A DNA stretch of 64,000 nt from Phycisphaerales bacterium (GTDB lineage Bacteria; Planctomycetota; Phycisphaerae; Phycisphaerales; SM1A02), in the NCBI GenBank assembly GCA_029268515.1, contig JAQWNP010000017.1:62001-126000 (forward strand). Reading direction: 5' to 3'. The notes beneath the pieces are model-generated. The model did not search any database. It was not told the origin of the DNA and saw nothing but the letters and a program-made list of their open reading frames with translations. Positions within the stretch are counted from its first letter, which is position 1; each line of letters starts with the position of its first letter. A program made the translations under genes and the position numbers. Shown piece after piece: positions 1 through 49,714 of this stretch.

Positions 1-479
1 AGATTCTTGACTACGGTTTCGTGCTCGACGTTGATCCGGTGATTTCTGCGGATCGACGTTATGTCACGATGACTGTTCGATGGCAGTACTCTGTCCTAGA
101 GAAACTTGAGTCACTCAATTACTCAGGTGCGACTGGTGCAAACGTGATCCCAGGTCAATCGAACGATTTTAACGGTGAAATTCAGTTGCCTATTACGCAG
201 TTGACAATCGTTAATACGACGGTCTCTATTCCTGACAAGGGAACCGTGCTTATTGGTGGACAACGTAAGGTGACTGAAATCGAAGTCGAGGTGGGTGTTC
301 CAGTTCTTTCTAAGGTGCCTTGGCTCAATCGATTCTTCACAAATCGTGTGACTGAAAAGGAAGAAAAGAACCTACTGATTCTTGTGCGACCTGAGATTAT
401 TGTGCAGCAAGAGAATGAAGACCTCTTGTTCCCAGGTCTTTCTGATTCAGTTTCGACCTCAAGCTCGTATATTCGCTAA
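1..479 (+). CDS. Type II/III secretin (GspD/PilQ-like), C-terminal fragment
   Basis: This is the 3' end of a gene entering from the left edge; the frame is open from base 3, so the apparent GTG at 21 is internal. The residues match the C-terminal secretin domain that forms the outer-membrane beta-barrel pore of type II secretion or type IV pilus machines. The diagnostic stretch is VSIPDKGTVLIGGQ, followed by VPVLSKVPWLNRFF and a closing ILVRPEII strand. It would export folded proteins or pass pseudopili. The two pseudopilins and the many secreted proteins elsewhere in the window are plausible clients, though nothing shows a direct link. A strong hairpin terminator follows the stop. GspD and PilQ cannot be told apart from this fragment. 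Confidence 0.88.
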   Translation, partial: ILDYGFVLDVDPVISADRRYVTMTVRWQYSVLEKLESLNYSGATGANVIPGQSNDFNGEIQLPITQLTIVNTTVSIPDKGTVLIGGQRKVTEIEVEVGVPVLSKVPWLNRFFTNRVTEKEEKNLLILVRPEIIVQQENEDLLFPGLSDSVSTSSSYIR

Positions 480-42458: not shown

Positions 42459-43325
42459 CTACGGCGTAGTCACAGTCGCAGATGACCAATTTGGGTTGTA
42501 AAGTCGGTCATCGTTTGAGAGAAAACCATCATTTGGATAATCCAGTAGCGACTGAATTGATGTTGGGGCATCTTCCCAACGCTCGCCACGAAATGGCACA
42601 TTCAAGGCGGAGGTGTGTCCATCTAAGTGGGCAATATTGGTGGCGCCTTTGTGGCGAAATGCCTGTCCACCGGTGTATATCAAATCTAGTCCTACCACAT
42701 GTTGGCCTGGGCCAAGATGTGGTTGTGCAGGACGATTGCCTGTCGGTGCTCTCATGTAGTTGTTGAGTGGTGCTTCTGGTCCACCGCGTCCAGCATCTCC
42801 GAATAATGCACAGTTTGCTGTTCGTTGGCATTGGCTTGGCCGTATACCGCGGTATGTGTAGTCGAAGTTTGGTGGCGCGAAGGCCATCTCTCCGCCAATG
42901 AAGGTGGTGTTGTAGTTGTAACCAGTCATCTGATCTGACTGCAAGGCATGATCTTCACAGGCGGGGCACTGATACAGTTTCTGTGGCTGATCAGCATAAT
43001 TCCATAATGAACCTGCTCGGACACGTTTGGGGGTCTGATTCAGGCCTGTCGTTTTTGTCACCCAATCCCAACTTGTTTGTTCGAGCTCACCGACTGCAGG
43101 GACGCGCCATGCAATAGCGGTTGGCCAATCGCTATGGTCGTTCGCATACCGCAGTGCTGCCTGAGCTAGTTGTGCCAGGTTTGCCTGGCACTGAACGCTT
43201 TTAGCCTTCGACTTTACGCTGGTTAGGGTGACAATGACCAAGCTGAGAAGCACTGTGATGATGGCAATGACCACCAACATTTCTATCAACGTCCAACCAT
43301 GATGCCTTCTGAGAGTTTCTGGCAC
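42459..43325 (-). CDS. Pseudopilin-like secreted protein, H-x9-DG type (cobalamin locus)
   Basis: 288 aa from the GTG at 43325, chosen because it starts one base after the preceding stop, has a GGGGG run 7-8 bases upstream, and puts the prepilin signal near the N-terminus; the frame runs 36 codons further without sense. The prepilin peptidase site is HHG|WTLIEMLVVIAII with Glu at +5. The C-terminal part includes HKGATNIAHLDGHTS, a His-x9-Asp-Gly motif typical of planctomycete pseudopilins. Two CxxC-like pairs are present (YQCPACEDH). It is the second gene behind a cobalamin riboswitch, so low cobalamin should raise its expression. Function beyond assembly or surface display is unknown. Confidence 0.82.
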   Translation of the reverse strand: MPETLRRHHGWTLIEMLVVIAIITVLLSLVIVTLTSVKSKAKSVQCQANLAQLAQAALRYANDHSDWPTAIAWRVPAVGELEQTSWDWVTKTTGLNQTPKRVRAGSLWNYADQPQKLYQCPACEDHALQSDQMTGYNYNTTFIGGEMAFAPPNFDYTYRGIRPSQCQRTANCALFGDAGRGGPEAPLNNYMRAPTGNRPAQPHLGPGQHVVGLDLIYTGGQAFRHKGATNIAHLDGHTSALNVPFRGERWEDAPTSIQSLLDYPNDGFLSNDDRLYNPNWSSATVTTP

Positions 43326-43326
43326 G

Positions 43327-44238
43327 CTAAGGCCCCCAGTTGATGAGCATGATGCTGAAGTCAGCGAGATCAATGTTCCCGTCGAGGTTGAAGTCGGCAG
43401 GTATGCCACCAGGAATTGATGGGCCCCAGCCAATCAAGAGTTCAGAGAAGTCAATGAGATCGACTTGACCATCATCATTGACATCGCCGGGTCGACGTGG
43501 GTGAACATCGGCCACGGCATCAACTTCAGGAACAGTGACAGCCTCGAGGGGTACTGAGATCCGAATATAAGAGATTGCTTGAAGTTCTACCCATGCCAGA
43601 TCAATACCAGCGCCACCACCGCTGCCTCGATATAAGGTGCAGGCCTCTTCGGCGCTCAGATTGAGAAAGTTGTTGAATGTGAGGCGTGGGTCAACTGGCC
43701 GTGTCATGACACTCGGGCTGAAACCAGGTTCCTCGCTATAGGCCGGTACATCGGTGTAGCCCATCGTGGGAAAAAGCCCATCAGCTTGGATGCCATCAAC
43801 GGCGTGCCAGAGAACGCCATCAGTACTGACTTCAATGAGGCCACCTTCAGGCCCAATCATTCCGGTGACCGTCCCCTCGGCGGTGCTGGAATCAACAAAG
43901 CCAGAATTTCCAAAAACGAGCAGGTCAATGCCATAGGGATTATTCGGGTCGTCTGTGACTGGCGTATCGAATTTCAGAACCAGCGAGCCACCAGCGCCAA
44001 TCGAGACAATCTCATTGGTCATAAATGCGGGAAAGAAGGGGGTCACCGCGCCGGGGAGAAAACGTTCGCCAGTAAATCGCTCAGGTGCGCCCAAGGTTGT
44101 TTCGGGCGTGGTGTAACCAAGCGTGGCCCCGATGCCCTGGTCATATACAACAACTGAATCGGCAAAGGGATCATCGGTGTGGGCGACCACCGTTGTCATA
44201 CTCAATGTGATGGTTAGCAGCGTTAATCTTAAAAACAC
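43327..44238 (-). CDS. Secreted dockerin-module surface protein under cobalamin-riboswitch control
   Basis: 303 aa from the GTG at 44238, chosen because AAGGAACGAG lies upstream and the next residues (VFLRLTLLTITLSMTTVVA) form a signal peptide; the frame extends further but overlaps the leader RNA. The body is beta-rich, with SLVLKFDTPV, GIDLLVFGNSGFVD, GLIEVSTDGVLWHAVDG and AGIDLAWVELQAISYIRISV. This arrangement reminds me of the cell-surface proteins found beside BtuB in B12-uptake loci of Bacteroidota; that likeness is from memory. Two EF-hand-like repeats end the protein (DVNDDGQVDLIDF and DFNLDGNIDLADF). It is the first gene behind the riboswitch. Cobalamin capture at the surface is inferred. 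Confidence 0.78.
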   Translation of the reverse strand: MFLRLTLLTITLSMTTVVAHTDDPFADSVVVYDQGIGATLGYTTPETTLGAPERFTGERFLPGAVTPFFPAFMTNEIVSIGAGGSLVLKFDTPVTDDPNNPYGIDLLVFGNSGFVDSSTAEGTVTGMIGPEGGLIEVSTDGVLWHAVDGIQADGLFPTMGYTDVPAYSEEPGFSPSVMTRPVDPRLTFNNFLNLSAEEACTLYRGSGGGAGIDLAWVELQAISYIRISVPLEAVTVPEVDAVADVHPRRPGDVNDDGQVDLIDFSELLIGWGPSIPGGIPADFNLDGNIDLADFSIMLINWGP

Positions 44239-44306
44239 AGACTCGTTCCTTGCGGTCGGTGCCAGAAGATCCGCTGCATCTGAGCGATGCTTAGACCAGG
44301 TGACCG

Positions 44307-44336
44307 CGCCTGGCCGTGTTAACGGACTGCCAGGCG
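44307..44336 (-). promoter_or_regulatory. Leader hairpin, possible riboswitch expression platform
   Basis: A perfect 8-bp inverted repeat, CGCCTGGC/GCCAGGCG, with a 14-base loop lies between the cobalamin aptamer and the gene it precedes. It has no T-run behind it, so translational rather than transcriptional control is more likely. Confidence 0.45.
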
Positions 44337-44409
44337 AACCAAGGTCATGAGAAGAAACACAGCAAGCTGCGCTCATGCCCAATGATCGCGCGGGCAGCGC
44401 CAAAAATCA

Positions 44410-44588
44410 GCGGCAGGTCTTCCGGCTCCGGGAGGCTCCCACTTAATGTGCCCAGCCTTCCCAGTCAGAGCGCCAGCCAACAAATGTTGGGGGCGTTGAC
44501 CAGTGGCAAAGGGCGCGTGGGCTGCAAATGCAGGCAGGTCCCGTTACGGCGGCGCGTCCGCGGCGGCTTTTCACCGCCTTCCCTCGTG
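44410..44588 (-). promoter_or_regulatory. Cobalamin (B12) riboswitch
   Basis: Read on the minus strand, the conserved blocks occur in order with normal spacing: GAGGGAAGGCGGTGAAAAGC, the GCGGACGCGCCGCCGTAACGG junction, TTTGCCACTGG, GGGAAGGCTGGGC, and the closing GGAGCCGGAAGACCTGCC. This is the class that binds adenosyl- or related cobalamins and turns expression off when the vitamin is plentiful. The next start codon lies about 170 nt downstream and begins a secreted protein, not a cobalamin synthesis gene. Confidence 0.93.
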
Positions 44589-44638
44589 ATCAGGCCCTGT
44601 GTAAGTGCAGACATGGCCCAATACCTCTGATAGGGGTC

Positions 44639-44669
44639 AGTATAGCTCAATCGAGATCGCTCCTCCCAA
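44639..44669 (-). promoter_or_regulatory. Possible promoter for the riboswitch transcript
   Basis: TTGGGA (44664-44669) and TATACT (44639-44644) on the minus strand, with a 19-bp spacer, about 50 bp before the riboswitch. The spacer is long and the match is by eye. The rest of the gap from 44589 to 44992 has no gene; GGCCTGATCAYGAGG occurs in it twice (44582-44596 and 44746-44760, one mismatch). Confidence 0.3.
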
Positions 44670-47148: not shown

Positions 47149-47221
47149 GCCACCCTAGCTCAGTTGGTAGAGCGGAGCTTTCGTAAAGCTCAGGTCACCG
47201 GTTCAAGTCCGGTGGGTGGCT
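47149..47221 (+). tRNA. tRNA-Thr (CGT)
   Basis: 73 nt. Acceptor GCCACCC/GGGTGGC, D-arm with AGCTCAGTTGGTAGAGC, anticodon stem GAGCT/AGCTC with loop TTCGTAA giving anticodon CGT, T-arm with GGTTCAAGTCC. The discriminator is T and no CCA is encoded. Its last base directly abuts the stop codon of the convergent Fur-family gene. Confidence 0.96.
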
Positions 47222-47602
47222 TCAAGCGCAAGACGCACACAACCCAGAGAGGGTGAGATCGTGGTGTTCGAGTTTGAACCCTTCTGGGAGGAGTTTGTTT
47301 AATCCGCCCGGGCACCCATGAATATCGAAAAAGCTGTCACAAGTCGTGCAGTGAAAGTGGTGGTGGTGCTTGGCAGCCACAGTGGCCAGTTCGTATCGAT
47401 CGTTGCCTCCAGGTACTGCAACACGCACGATTTCACCTGCAGCCTCAAAGCGGCGAACCGCTCGGTAGACCGTTCGCAACCCGATGGATTCGATTTCCTG
47501 TTTTGCAAGTTGATGCAATTCATTAATCGATAGGGGCCGCTCGGCGGTCTCGATTGCGGCTCGGATGGTCTGAAGTTGTTTGGTTTGGCGCTCAGCGGTC
47601 AT
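47222..47602 (-). CDS. Fur-family metalloregulator, probably Zur
   Basis: 126 aa, one full Fur-type repressor. The N-terminal winged helix includes PLSINELHQLAKQEI and RTVYRAVRRFEAAGEI. The C-terminal dimerisation/metal domain has the His-rich HHHHFHCTTCDSFFDI and the closing LSGLCASC, giving the two CxxC pairs of a structural zinc site. Which metal it senses cannot be read from the sequence alone. The adjacent divergent genes include a protein like the Zur-repressed all3515 family, which favours zinc. It is divergent from them across a 167-bp gap that holds an inverted repeat. Its stop codon touches the tRNA-Thr gene. Confidence 0.85.
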   Translation of the reverse strand: MTAERQTKQLQTIRAAIETAERPLSINELHQLAKQEIESIGLRTVYRAVRRFEAAGEIVRVAVPGGNDRYELATVAAKHHHHFHCTTCDSFFDIHGCPGGLNKLLPEGFKLEHHDLTLSGLCASCA

Positions 47603-47680
47603 GGCATATAGACATCGATATCTCGGTGGGTGACCTCATTCAAGGCTTGGATCTTAACCATAATTATGCGCTAAATACTA

Positions 47681-47709
47681 TTGACAATCAATTGTCAGTA
47701 GGTGATATT
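47681..47709 (+). promoter_or_regulatory. Candidate Zur/Fur operator overlapping a promoter
   Basis: TGACAAT-CA-ATTGTCA at 47682-47697 is a perfect 7-2-7 inverted repeat, close in plan to Fur-family boxes. It overlaps TTGACA (47681-47686), which is 17 bp from GATATT (47704-47709), a good promoter for the pseudopilin gene at 47770. A repressor bound here would block the -35 element. Confidence 0.6.
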
Positions 47710-47769
47710 CCATAACTTTGCTGCCTGAAGGGCATTTTTTGTGATCTACGAGCGAAAGAGACTTCTCCA

Positions 47770-48531
47770 ATGATGTTGACAAGTCATCAAAATCGGACAC
47801 ATCGCGGGTTCACCGTTATTGAGCTGGTTGTCGTGATGGGGATTATTTCGATATTGGCTGCGATTCTCATACCTTCGATTGCGGGGCTCAGGCATCGAGC
47901 GTTTGTTGCCACAGATGTATTGAATCTTCGTTCGCTTCAGATAGCCCACTATCAGTATGCAGTAGACGAAGATGGGAAATTTGCTGATGCAGGGCTTGCT
48001 CATGGAGGCCTTGCAAACGAAGAAATAGCTTGGCTGAATCTCGTTGGCGAGTATGTAGATCTCGATGGTGTTATTCGATCGCCACTGGATACAAGTCCAC
48101 ACTGGGAAACACCAGTTGAGGGTACGACGAATCGATTCCGTCGGACCAGTTACGGTTGGAATAACTATCTTTCCCGTACGCATTCACCTGACGCAGCAAT
48201 CGATCCAAGGCAGGCTGTGGATCGGATGAGTAAATTAAAGAATCCGGCAAAGACAGTGCATTTTTTGCATATGGCAGCCACAGGATCTTTTGCTGGAGCT
48301 GATCATGTTCATGTCGAGAATTGGTGGATTGGCGACTCTCATCCAGACGCCCCACCAGTTTTGGCATCCAATCAAGTTCAGACCAACGCTGTTTCCGGCA
48401 AGCCACATTCATCTCAGGCGAAGTCAAACTATGGATTTGTAGATGGTCATGTCGAAACCCGGCATTTCTTTGATGTTTATGTTGATCCCAATCGTAATTC
48501 CTTTAACCCTGAAAATGCTCCTTTGTTTTAA
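47770..48531 (+). CDS. Pseudopilin-like secreted protein (zinc locus)
   Basis: 253 aa. The prepilin signal is HRG|FTVIELVVVMGIISILAA with Glu at +5, followed by a long N-terminal helix. The C-terminal region contains NYGFVDGHVETRH, the DG-H segment seen in planctomycete pseudopilins, and several His residues (AGADHVHVENWW) that could bind metal. It is the first gene after the putative Zur operator, and the secreted all3515-like protein follows 24 bp downstream. It pairs with the pseudopilin of the cobalamin locus at 42459, but the two share only the general plan. Two adjacent ATG codons could serve as start. Confidence 0.83.
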   Translation: MMLTSHQNRTHRGFTVIELVVVMGIISILAAILIPSIAGLRHRAFVATDVLNLRSLQIAHYQYAVDEDGKFADAGLAHGGLANEEIAWLNLVGEYVDLDGVIRSPLDTSPHWETPVEGTTNRFRRTSYGWNNYLSRTHSPDAAIDPRQAVDRMSKLKNPAKTVHFLHMAATGSFAGADHVHVENWWIGDSHPDAPPVLASNQVQTNAVSGKPHSSQAKSNYGFVDGHVETRHFFDVYVDPNRNSFNPENAPLF

Positions 48532-48555
48532 AAACTTTAAGTACGAAAGACGAAT

Positions 48556-49479
48556 TTGTTAATGTCATTCCCATTTAATAAAAAAGTCAGTCAATTCAAA
48601 ACCGTTGGAACGCTTGTTTTATTCGCAACCGTGACCCCTCTTTTGGCATTTGTCCAAGACGCCGCAGCTCAACATGCTGGAGATATCTTCATTAATGTTC
48701 AAGCAGACAAGATCCATACTGGATTGGTCGAGGATGATGAAGTAGTCGAATCAAATGAACGTGTCTTTGAGTCGGAGTTGGGTGAATCTGGTGTGCCGGG
48801 TTTCTCCGATGAGCCTGGTTGGGAGGCATTCCCAGGCACCTTTGAGCCTGGGTCTAGCTTAGGCTGGAACGCCTTAGCGGGCGTTGGTCGATGGAACGGT
48901 TCTGGTTTTGACACTGGAATTGACGAGACCATTGAGGTGGCTTTTGCAAGTCTTTCCTTTACGATCGGTAACGCACCTATCAATGGCTTTGAACTTGTAG
49001 TTGCGGCAGATGGTAGTTTTCATCGTCACATCAGTTTCTATCTCGATAGCCCCACCAATGATCCCGCAGTAGGTATTTATCTTGTGGAGTTGGAGCTACA
49101 TGCTCTTGGAGATTATGAGACTTCTGATTCTTTCTGGATTGTGTTTAACAATTTGGCGAGTGAAGAAGATCACGAGGCCGCGGTGGAGTGGGTCGAAGAG
49201 AATATGGCCAATGAACTTCGCTGCACTGGAGATCTGACTGGTGACAATGTGGTCGACCTTGCAGATTTCTCTGAGTTTCTGATTCAGTTTGGCAACGTTG
49301 GTAATGGCTTGTCAGCAGACTTGGATGAGGATCAAGACGTTGACGTCAATGATTTCTCTGAGTTCTTAGTAAACTTCGGCAATACTTGCGAGGAACGCAG
49401 CACTGTCGTTGAGACAGCTCCTACGAAGGCTTCGCCAAAGAAAAACAGTCGCGGCGGCATACTCGGATCGGTCAAGTAA
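48556..49479 (+). CDS. Secreted dockerin-module protein, all3515-like (zinc-responsive)
   Basis: 307 aa. A signal peptide (TVGTLVLFATVTPLLAFV, then AAAQHAGDIFI) precedes a beta-rich body. The segments SDEPGWEAFPGTF, HRHISFYLDSP, VGIYLVELELHAL, SDSFWIVFNNLASEEDHEAA match, from memory, the family named in databases as all3515 family Zur-repressed PEP-CTERM protein. In place of PEP-CTERM it ends with two EF-hand-like repeats (DLTGDNVVDLADF and DLDEDQDVDVNDF) and a Lys-rich tail. It probably acts at the cell surface in zinc-limited cells; zinc binding is not shown. It follows the pseudopilin by 24 bp and ends at a strong terminator. Confidence 0.75.
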   Translation: MLMSFPFNKKVSQFKTVGTLVLFATVTPLLAFVQDAAAQHAGDIFINVQADKIHTGLVEDDEVVESNERVFESELGESGVPGFSDEPGWEAFPGTFEPGSSLGWNALAGVGRWNGSGFDTGIDETIEVAFASLSFTIGNAPINGFELVVAADGSFHRHISFYLDSPTNDPAVGIYLVELELHALGDYETSDSFWIVFNNLASEEDHEAAVEWVEENMANELRCTGDLTGDNVVDLADFSEFLIQFGNVGNGLSADLDEDQDVDVNDFSEFLVNFGNTCEERSTVVETAPTKASPKKNSRGGILGSVK

Positions 49480-49533: not shown

Positions 49534-49714
49534 CTATTAAGGAATTTACGATCTTAGGAAGGCAATCGTCAAGCCAGAGCCCAATTCGTGATTGATGTGT
49601 GCCTCGAGATGACAGTTGATTGTTAGGATTTGATTATCGGTGGACTGGTGATAAGAAGTCGCTCAGCTTCTTCGATGGCCACAAAAGTCCAGCGGGGATA
49701 TTCATGAAATAAAA

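Follow-up and report, generated by a model that had tools for sequence, protein, structure and literature searches.

A pseudopilin and a secreted protein of an unnamed family under a probable Zur regulator in Phycisphaerales

The window, a stretch of 64,000 nucleotides from a 3.2-Mb Phycisphaerales genome, carries a gene for a FUR-family regulator that diverges from the genes for a pseudopilin and a secreted protein, which we refer to as the exoprotein (Table 1). This three-gene layout had been proposed in a first-pass annotation and is borne out by the matches of the regulator to PF01475 and of the pseudopilin to PF07963. The 167-bp gap between these two genes holds the operator. Translation of the exoprotein more likely begins at the ATG at 48562 than at the TTG that is listed. 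Between the operator and the start codon, the pilin leader contains a short hairpin that resembles a terminator and runs into six T residues (47722-47734), although chance also yields such sites.

Table 1. Positions of the features of the regulator-pseudopilin-exoprotein locus in the window
Feature	Position	Strand	Remarks
tRNA	47149-47221	+	End abuts the end of the FUR-family gene at 47222
FUR-family regulator, most likely Zur, 126 aa	47222-47602	-	PF01475, E 4e-19
Promoter-like site towards the regulator, TTGATT-17-CATAAT	47663-47691	-	9/12 matches; operator overlaps
Promoter-like site towards the pseudopilin, TTGACA-17-GATATT	47681-47709	+	10/12 matches; operator overlaps
Operator TGACAATCAATTGTCA, perfect 7-2-7 palindrome, 16 bp	47682-47697		Conserved in relatives, ahead of the pilin
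Pseudopilin, 253 aa, prepilin motif GFTVIEL	47770-48531	+	N_methyl PF07963, E 6e-07
Exoprotein, unnamed family	48556-49479	+	Signal-peptide-like start (by eye), beta-sandwich core, dockerin-like tail
Conserved exoprotein core, window residues 39-222	48670-49221	+	Alignment of 81 sequences
C-terminal GC-type dockerin-like pair, residues 223-278	49222-49389	+	NF041540, 27.1 bits (cut-off 29)

The TTGACA at 47681-47686 is the -35 element of the best promoter-like site in the region, and the first-pass annotation was correct in placing the palindrome across the -35 of a good promoter. Since the palindrome also overlaps the promoter-like site of the regulator gene, the regulator may well control its own expression. 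The operator exceeds what chance would give: shuffling predicts 0.00 operator-type sites per 900 bp upstream of the pilin in the window, and relatives have a palindrome of this type at the orthologous position, among them many of the 40 family loci that were fetched by the exoprotein. A matrix built from eight sites picked by eye was used to scan 80 loci of named genomes at a threshold of 17 bits or more. At most 400 bp upstream of the pilin, 24 sites were found in 32,718 positions; the rest of the same loci, 798,664 positions, held 3. Such a site precedes the pilin in 18 of the 80 loci, 12 of which lie outside the training set of the matrix, with some of these being close kin of training loci. 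The operator goes together with a divergent regulator, as it is present in 15 of 19 loci that have one versus 3 of 61 that do not (p 4e-10); in other words, 58 of the 61 pilin-exoprotein loci lacking a divergent regulator lack the operator as well. In 11 of the 18 loci a second site is located exactly 24 bp away, and no other spacing is seen more than once, an arrangement that would suit two dimers binding side by side. A single site is retained in the window and in its sister L191, an uncultured Phycisphaerae bacterium that is the nearest named relative. Past the exoprotein gene, the window itself also holds a second, weaker operator-like site, TGACAGTTGATTGTTA, at 49610-49625 (18.9 bits), accompanied by a promoter-like match, and no convincing gene was found behind it.

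The first-pass annotation had further proposed to look for the same element upstream of zinc transporter genes elsewhere in the genome, a check that came out negative. The exact 16-bp element occurs only once in the 3.2 Mb. Allowing up to two mismatches yields 12 places (1 exact and 11 with two mismatches), versus 4 for a reversed-pattern control. One of the 11 is the site at 49610, and the ten outside the window score at most 17.6 bits and, by eye, are mostly inside genes or next to genes without an evident zinc role, on which grounds we reject a wide Zur regulon in this genome. Apart from the operator itself, the exact and two-mismatch places yielded no strong operator, and the sole ZnuA-type operon of the genome, which adjoins a DtxR-family gene, has no strong site. 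Hence, the regulon in this genome looks like a single locus.

The pseudopilin scores 29.2 bits against PF07963 (cut-off 21.2) and has a Glu at +5, with E18 invariant in 74 of 74 sequences. Its model (pLDDT 94.3) shows a long N-terminal helix comprising residues 16 to 66, and a fold search against solved structures gave no match at E 0.001. The model for H-X9-DG-CTERM prepilins, TIGR04294, gives 13.2 bits, below its cut-off of 19. Pilin alignments (73 of 79 pilins plus the window; in an earlier set 40 of 41, the cut L072 being left out) revealed H78, D107, W112, D178, H179, H181, W185, and D225 as invariant residues. The three His are His in all 74 zinc-cassette sequences, while for 25 pilins of the vitamin B12 cassette discussed below the counts show no His at these columns, with Y prevailing at 78 and gaps at the other two; 1 of these 25 has the DHxH motif.

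The pseudopilin is the constant partner of the exoprotein, a pairing that the first-pass annotation did not see. Loci fetched by the exoprotein have the pilin upstream in 40 of 40 cases, and loci fetched by the pilin (the best 80 of 161 confirmed places, L191-L270) have the exoprotein downstream in 75 of 80, counts that are not independent given that many of the 80 loci are from the same genomes as the 40 (L039-L078). Four of the five pilin loci without an exoprotein end less than about 500 bp past the pilin at a contig end; the fifth, L217, has room and no match. The pair also occurs in 12 of 13 deeper loci, some of which are from other families of the phylum. In addition, 35 of 78 loci have a His-rich CxxC gene, weakly DUF2946-like, ahead of the pilin.

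The exoprotein of the window has no match in Pfam. Its family was studied with a set of 57 of 62 ORFs, from which the long, fused, or extended ORFs of L044, L051, L069, L071, and L073 were left out; the L049 ORF, with unknown residues, had been dropped earlier, and one subset analysis took 42 of the 57 members. The core alignment (80 of 101 domains plus the window) has P49, G50, and H120 as invariant residues (core numbering), the latter in 81 of 81. The core is modeled with high confidence (pLDDT 95.9) as a beta-sandwich. No solved relative was found by sequence at E 1, a fold search revealed no clear relative (best Z 7.5), and Foldseek gave a TM of at most 0.46 among the matches listed. The tails of the family vary between a dockerin-like pair, as in the window, and the PEP-CTERM-like tails of some paralogues. 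The model for GC-type dockerins, NF041540, scores the window protein somewhat below its cut-off (27.1 versus 29 bits) and matches 28 of the 57 members at E 0.01. Two paralogues are arranged in tandem in 38 of 80 loci, and one locus (L044:6009-8060) encodes a 683-aa protein in which three exoprotein cores are fused by His/Asp-rich linkers and followed by one terminal dockerin-like pair.

The identity of the regulator as Zur cannot be told from its sequence alone. The protein has a FUR domain with two CxxC pairs (C85/C88 and C122/C125) and an HHHH stretch (79-82). A regulator alignment took in 15 of 16 regulators, the weak L078 being left out. The closest solved structure by score is 9ire, annotated as Fur (E 2.5e-15), followed by 3mwm (E 5.7e-15), which is named only a putative metal uptake regulator and which we take to be Streptomyces Zur. 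The M-site Cys, a signature of actinobacterial Zur with a role at the regulatory site, has no counterpart in the alignment. Gene context is more informative. In a quick tree, the window regulator belongs to a clade of 40 (support 0.86) together with orthologues encoded beside ZnuA, COG0523, and ZepA; the three other FUR paralogues of the genome fall outside this clade, and one of these three adjoins a peroxidase gene. G019 encodes its orthologue next to ZnuA (E 3e-70, with a His-rich loop visible by eye) and an ABC ATPase, G030 and G025 next to a COG0523 GTPase, and G452 and G524 next to true ZepA. In G030, an operator site of 23.3 bits lies between the regulator and COG0523 genes. The exoprotein, in turn, is found in 30 of 34 regulator-positive genomes versus 26 of 67 others (p 2e-6); of the four regulator-positive genomes without an exoprotein match, one, G085, is truncated by a contig end. 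Given the conserved operator, the orthologues next to ZnuA-ABC, COG0523, and true ZepA genes, and the position of the paralogues outside the clade, the regulator is most likely Zur, and the Zur regulation with a visible operator suggested at first pass has gained comparative support.

In G019 (L159), an element of the same 7-2-7 layout with other bases, TGGGAATGGATTCCCA, was noted by eye between the regulator and ZnuA, upstream of the regulator, and suggests that the operator may have drifted in GC-rich relatives. A search in seven genomes for an operator common to regulator and exoprotein loci gave nothing clear.

Taken together, we consider it probable (about 0.7) that the cassette is a Zur-repressed zinc-acquisition system that combines a zinc-scavenging exoprotein with a dedicated pseudopilin. 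The regulatory half is well supported, with the gene layout, the conserved operator, the constant pilin-exoprotein pairing, and the zinc gene contexts of the regulator orthologues all computed directly. The uptake half, comprising zinc binding by the exoprotein and the pilin, the role in uptake, and the exact part of the pilin, is what we infer. The reading is weakened by the single-locus regulon in this genome, by the absence of the operator from most of the 80 loci, by the Fur annotation of the closest solved structure together with the missing M-site Cys, and by the four regulator-positive genomes that gave no exoprotein match. With zinc present, Zur bound to the 7-2-7 palindrome would block the -35 that serves the pilin and exoprotein genes and, acting at this one site, would also limit its own transcription. 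Upon zinc scarcity, Zur would be released, allowing both the pseudopilin and the exoprotein to be made. The signal peptide would then direct export of the exoprotein, and the dockerin-like pair (or, in some paralogues, a PEP-CTERM-like tail) would anchor it to the cell surface, where it would scavenge zinc. The pseudopilin might join a machine that resembles a type II/IV pilus and export or display the exoprotein, or else help to retrieve the loaded protein.

Conceivably, the regulator responds to manganese or iron rather than to zinc and the cassette imports whichever metal is sensed, although we deem this unlikely. DtxR-family and ZnuA-type proteins also serve manganese. In G060 (L053), genes for a DtxR-family regulator and a ZnuA-type binding protein come after the exoprotein pair, so this particular cassette could serve manganese, and the DtxR-family neighbor of the ZnuA-type operon in the window's own genome would fit the same scheme. 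Moreover, the metal choice of FUR-family proteins is unreadable from sequence according to a passage of the ZepA paper (PMC10957091). On the other hand, the regulator orthologues lie beside a ZnuA with a His-rich loop, twice beside COG0523, and twice beside ZepA, which by the account given in that paper co-eluted with zinc and with no other metal. We take zinc to be the probable metal in this species.

Alternatively, the pilin and exoprotein could form a surface structure for adhesion or matrix formation that is under Zur control and is not an uptake device. The solved folds nearest to the core model are fimbrial beta-sandwiches, albeit at a Z of at most 7.5, and tails of the dockerin and PEP-CTERM types serve in general to anchor proteins at the surface. 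The co-clustering with ZnuA, COG0523, ZepA, and His-rich small proteins and the family-specific His residues of the pilin speak against such a role, and we give it little credence.

The nature of the exoprotein deserves separate consideration, as the first-pass annotation had called it all3515-like. We used NF040463, the NCBIfam model all3515_fam. The window exoprotein does not match this model at E 1, and none of the 57 members (the window protein and 56 relatives) does so at E 0.01, versus 272.9 and 255.9 bits for true members in relatives from the order. The ZepA motif given in PMC10957091, H-X2-9-H-[FY]-H, is likewise found in 0 of the 57, and an alignment of the exoprotein profile to two real ZepA proteins with hhalign yields a probability of 0.6%. 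On these three counts the assignment to all3515/ZepA was rejected. A dockerin-like pair, as the first-pass annotation also noted, is indeed present, but it does not stand in for a lost PEP-CTERM of ZepA because the exoprotein belongs to another family. True all3515/ZepA occurs in 2 of 201 sampled genomes of the order, G452 and G524, and in both it shares one cluster with the regulator, the pilin, and the exoprotein family; for this reason, the original guess at function was close, even though the family name was wrong. That the exoprotein is a divergent ZepA/all3515 protein is consistent with the same type of regulator, secretion, a His near the mature N terminus, and PEP-CTERM-like tails in paralogues, but is very improbable in view of the missing model match, motif, and profile similarity and of the coexistence of both proteins as separate genes in G452 and G524. 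Next to ZepA and the regulator, G452 (L176:11817-12467) also has a second pilin with a further PEP-CTERM-like exoprotein behind it, which may represent a third kind of pair.

Three kilobases from the zinc cassette, the window holds on the minus strand (42459-44643) a cobalamin riboswitch followed by genes for a dockerin exoprotein and a pseudopilin. Present in 72 of 81 family genomes, the exoprotein of this B12 cassette is found in all 57 with a completeness of 90% or more and a contamination of 5% or less. It has a pilin next to it in 25 of 25 loci, and the riboswitch was found in 19 of the 20 of these loci that were scanned. It would thus appear that two micronutrient sensors control two exoprotein-pilin pairs. 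The TonB plug domain has no match in the window's genome and is found in 21 of 61 family genomes. The genome encodes four secretins (PF00263), and the match of one of them overlaps the left edge of the window (1-401; G000:C17:61844-62401). It is tempting, if rather speculative, to propose that dedicated pseudopilins serve Phycisphaerales as components of nutrient-specific uptake, with each micronutrient having its own exoprotein, pilin, and matching sensor (Zur for zinc, the cobalamin riboswitch for vitamin B12) in place of TonB-dependent receptors, which are apparently absent from the window's genome.

Within the literature that we searched, ZepA was the one family of such secreted proteins described as capturing zinc under Zur control, and no zinc-regulated pilin in planctomycetes emerged from the titles and abstract starts covered, which included few subscription papers. 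Hence, Zur-regulated extracellular zinc capture is already known, and what is new here is an undescribed exoprotein family with a dedicated pseudopilin, which may be a new bacterial way to collect scarce zinc. It places a second, unrelated exoprotein family in the regulatory setting of ZepA, paired about one to one with a pseudopilin, and does so in a genome in which no TonB plug domain was found. Combined with its B12-riboswitch twin, the zinc cassette offers a testable proposal for the passage of micronutrients across the outer membrane of planctomycetes.

Compared with known systems, the window regulator resembles Zur (3mwm and M. tuberculosis FurB, 2o03) in its FUR family, CxxC pairs, and HHHH motif and in having an inverted-repeat operator over a promoter. 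It differs in having no counterpart of the actinobacterial M-site Cys, and the system as a whole differs in its 7-2-7 operator, which in relatives often comes in two copies 24 bp apart. The pseudopilin shares the prepilin motif with Glu at +5 and the long N-terminal helix with type II/IV pseudopilins (PF07963, TIGR02532); in contrast to these, it has a head domain without a good solved match, family-specific invariant His residues, and a fixed exoprotein partner. ZepA/All3515 of Anabaena, as presented in PMC10957091, is similarly a secreted protein encoded beside a FUR-family gene, with a palindrome at its promoter. The exoprotein, however, has no sequence or motif similarity to it, carries a dockerin-like pair instead of PEP-CTERM, and has a fixed pseudopilin partner, whereas the words pilin and prepilin are absent from the main text of that paper. 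Finally, pili-like fibers of the crateriform structures of Planctomycetes bind dextran and have been proposed to act in the uptake of macromolecules across the outer membrane (PMC5394234). No pilin gene is named and the word pilin is absent there, and the cassettes of the window are candidates only. If true, the pseudopilin uptake reading would supply genes for this uncharacterized fiber-based uptake in Planctomycetes, taking up the question of outer-membrane passage that the description of fiber-bound dextran uptake had raised.
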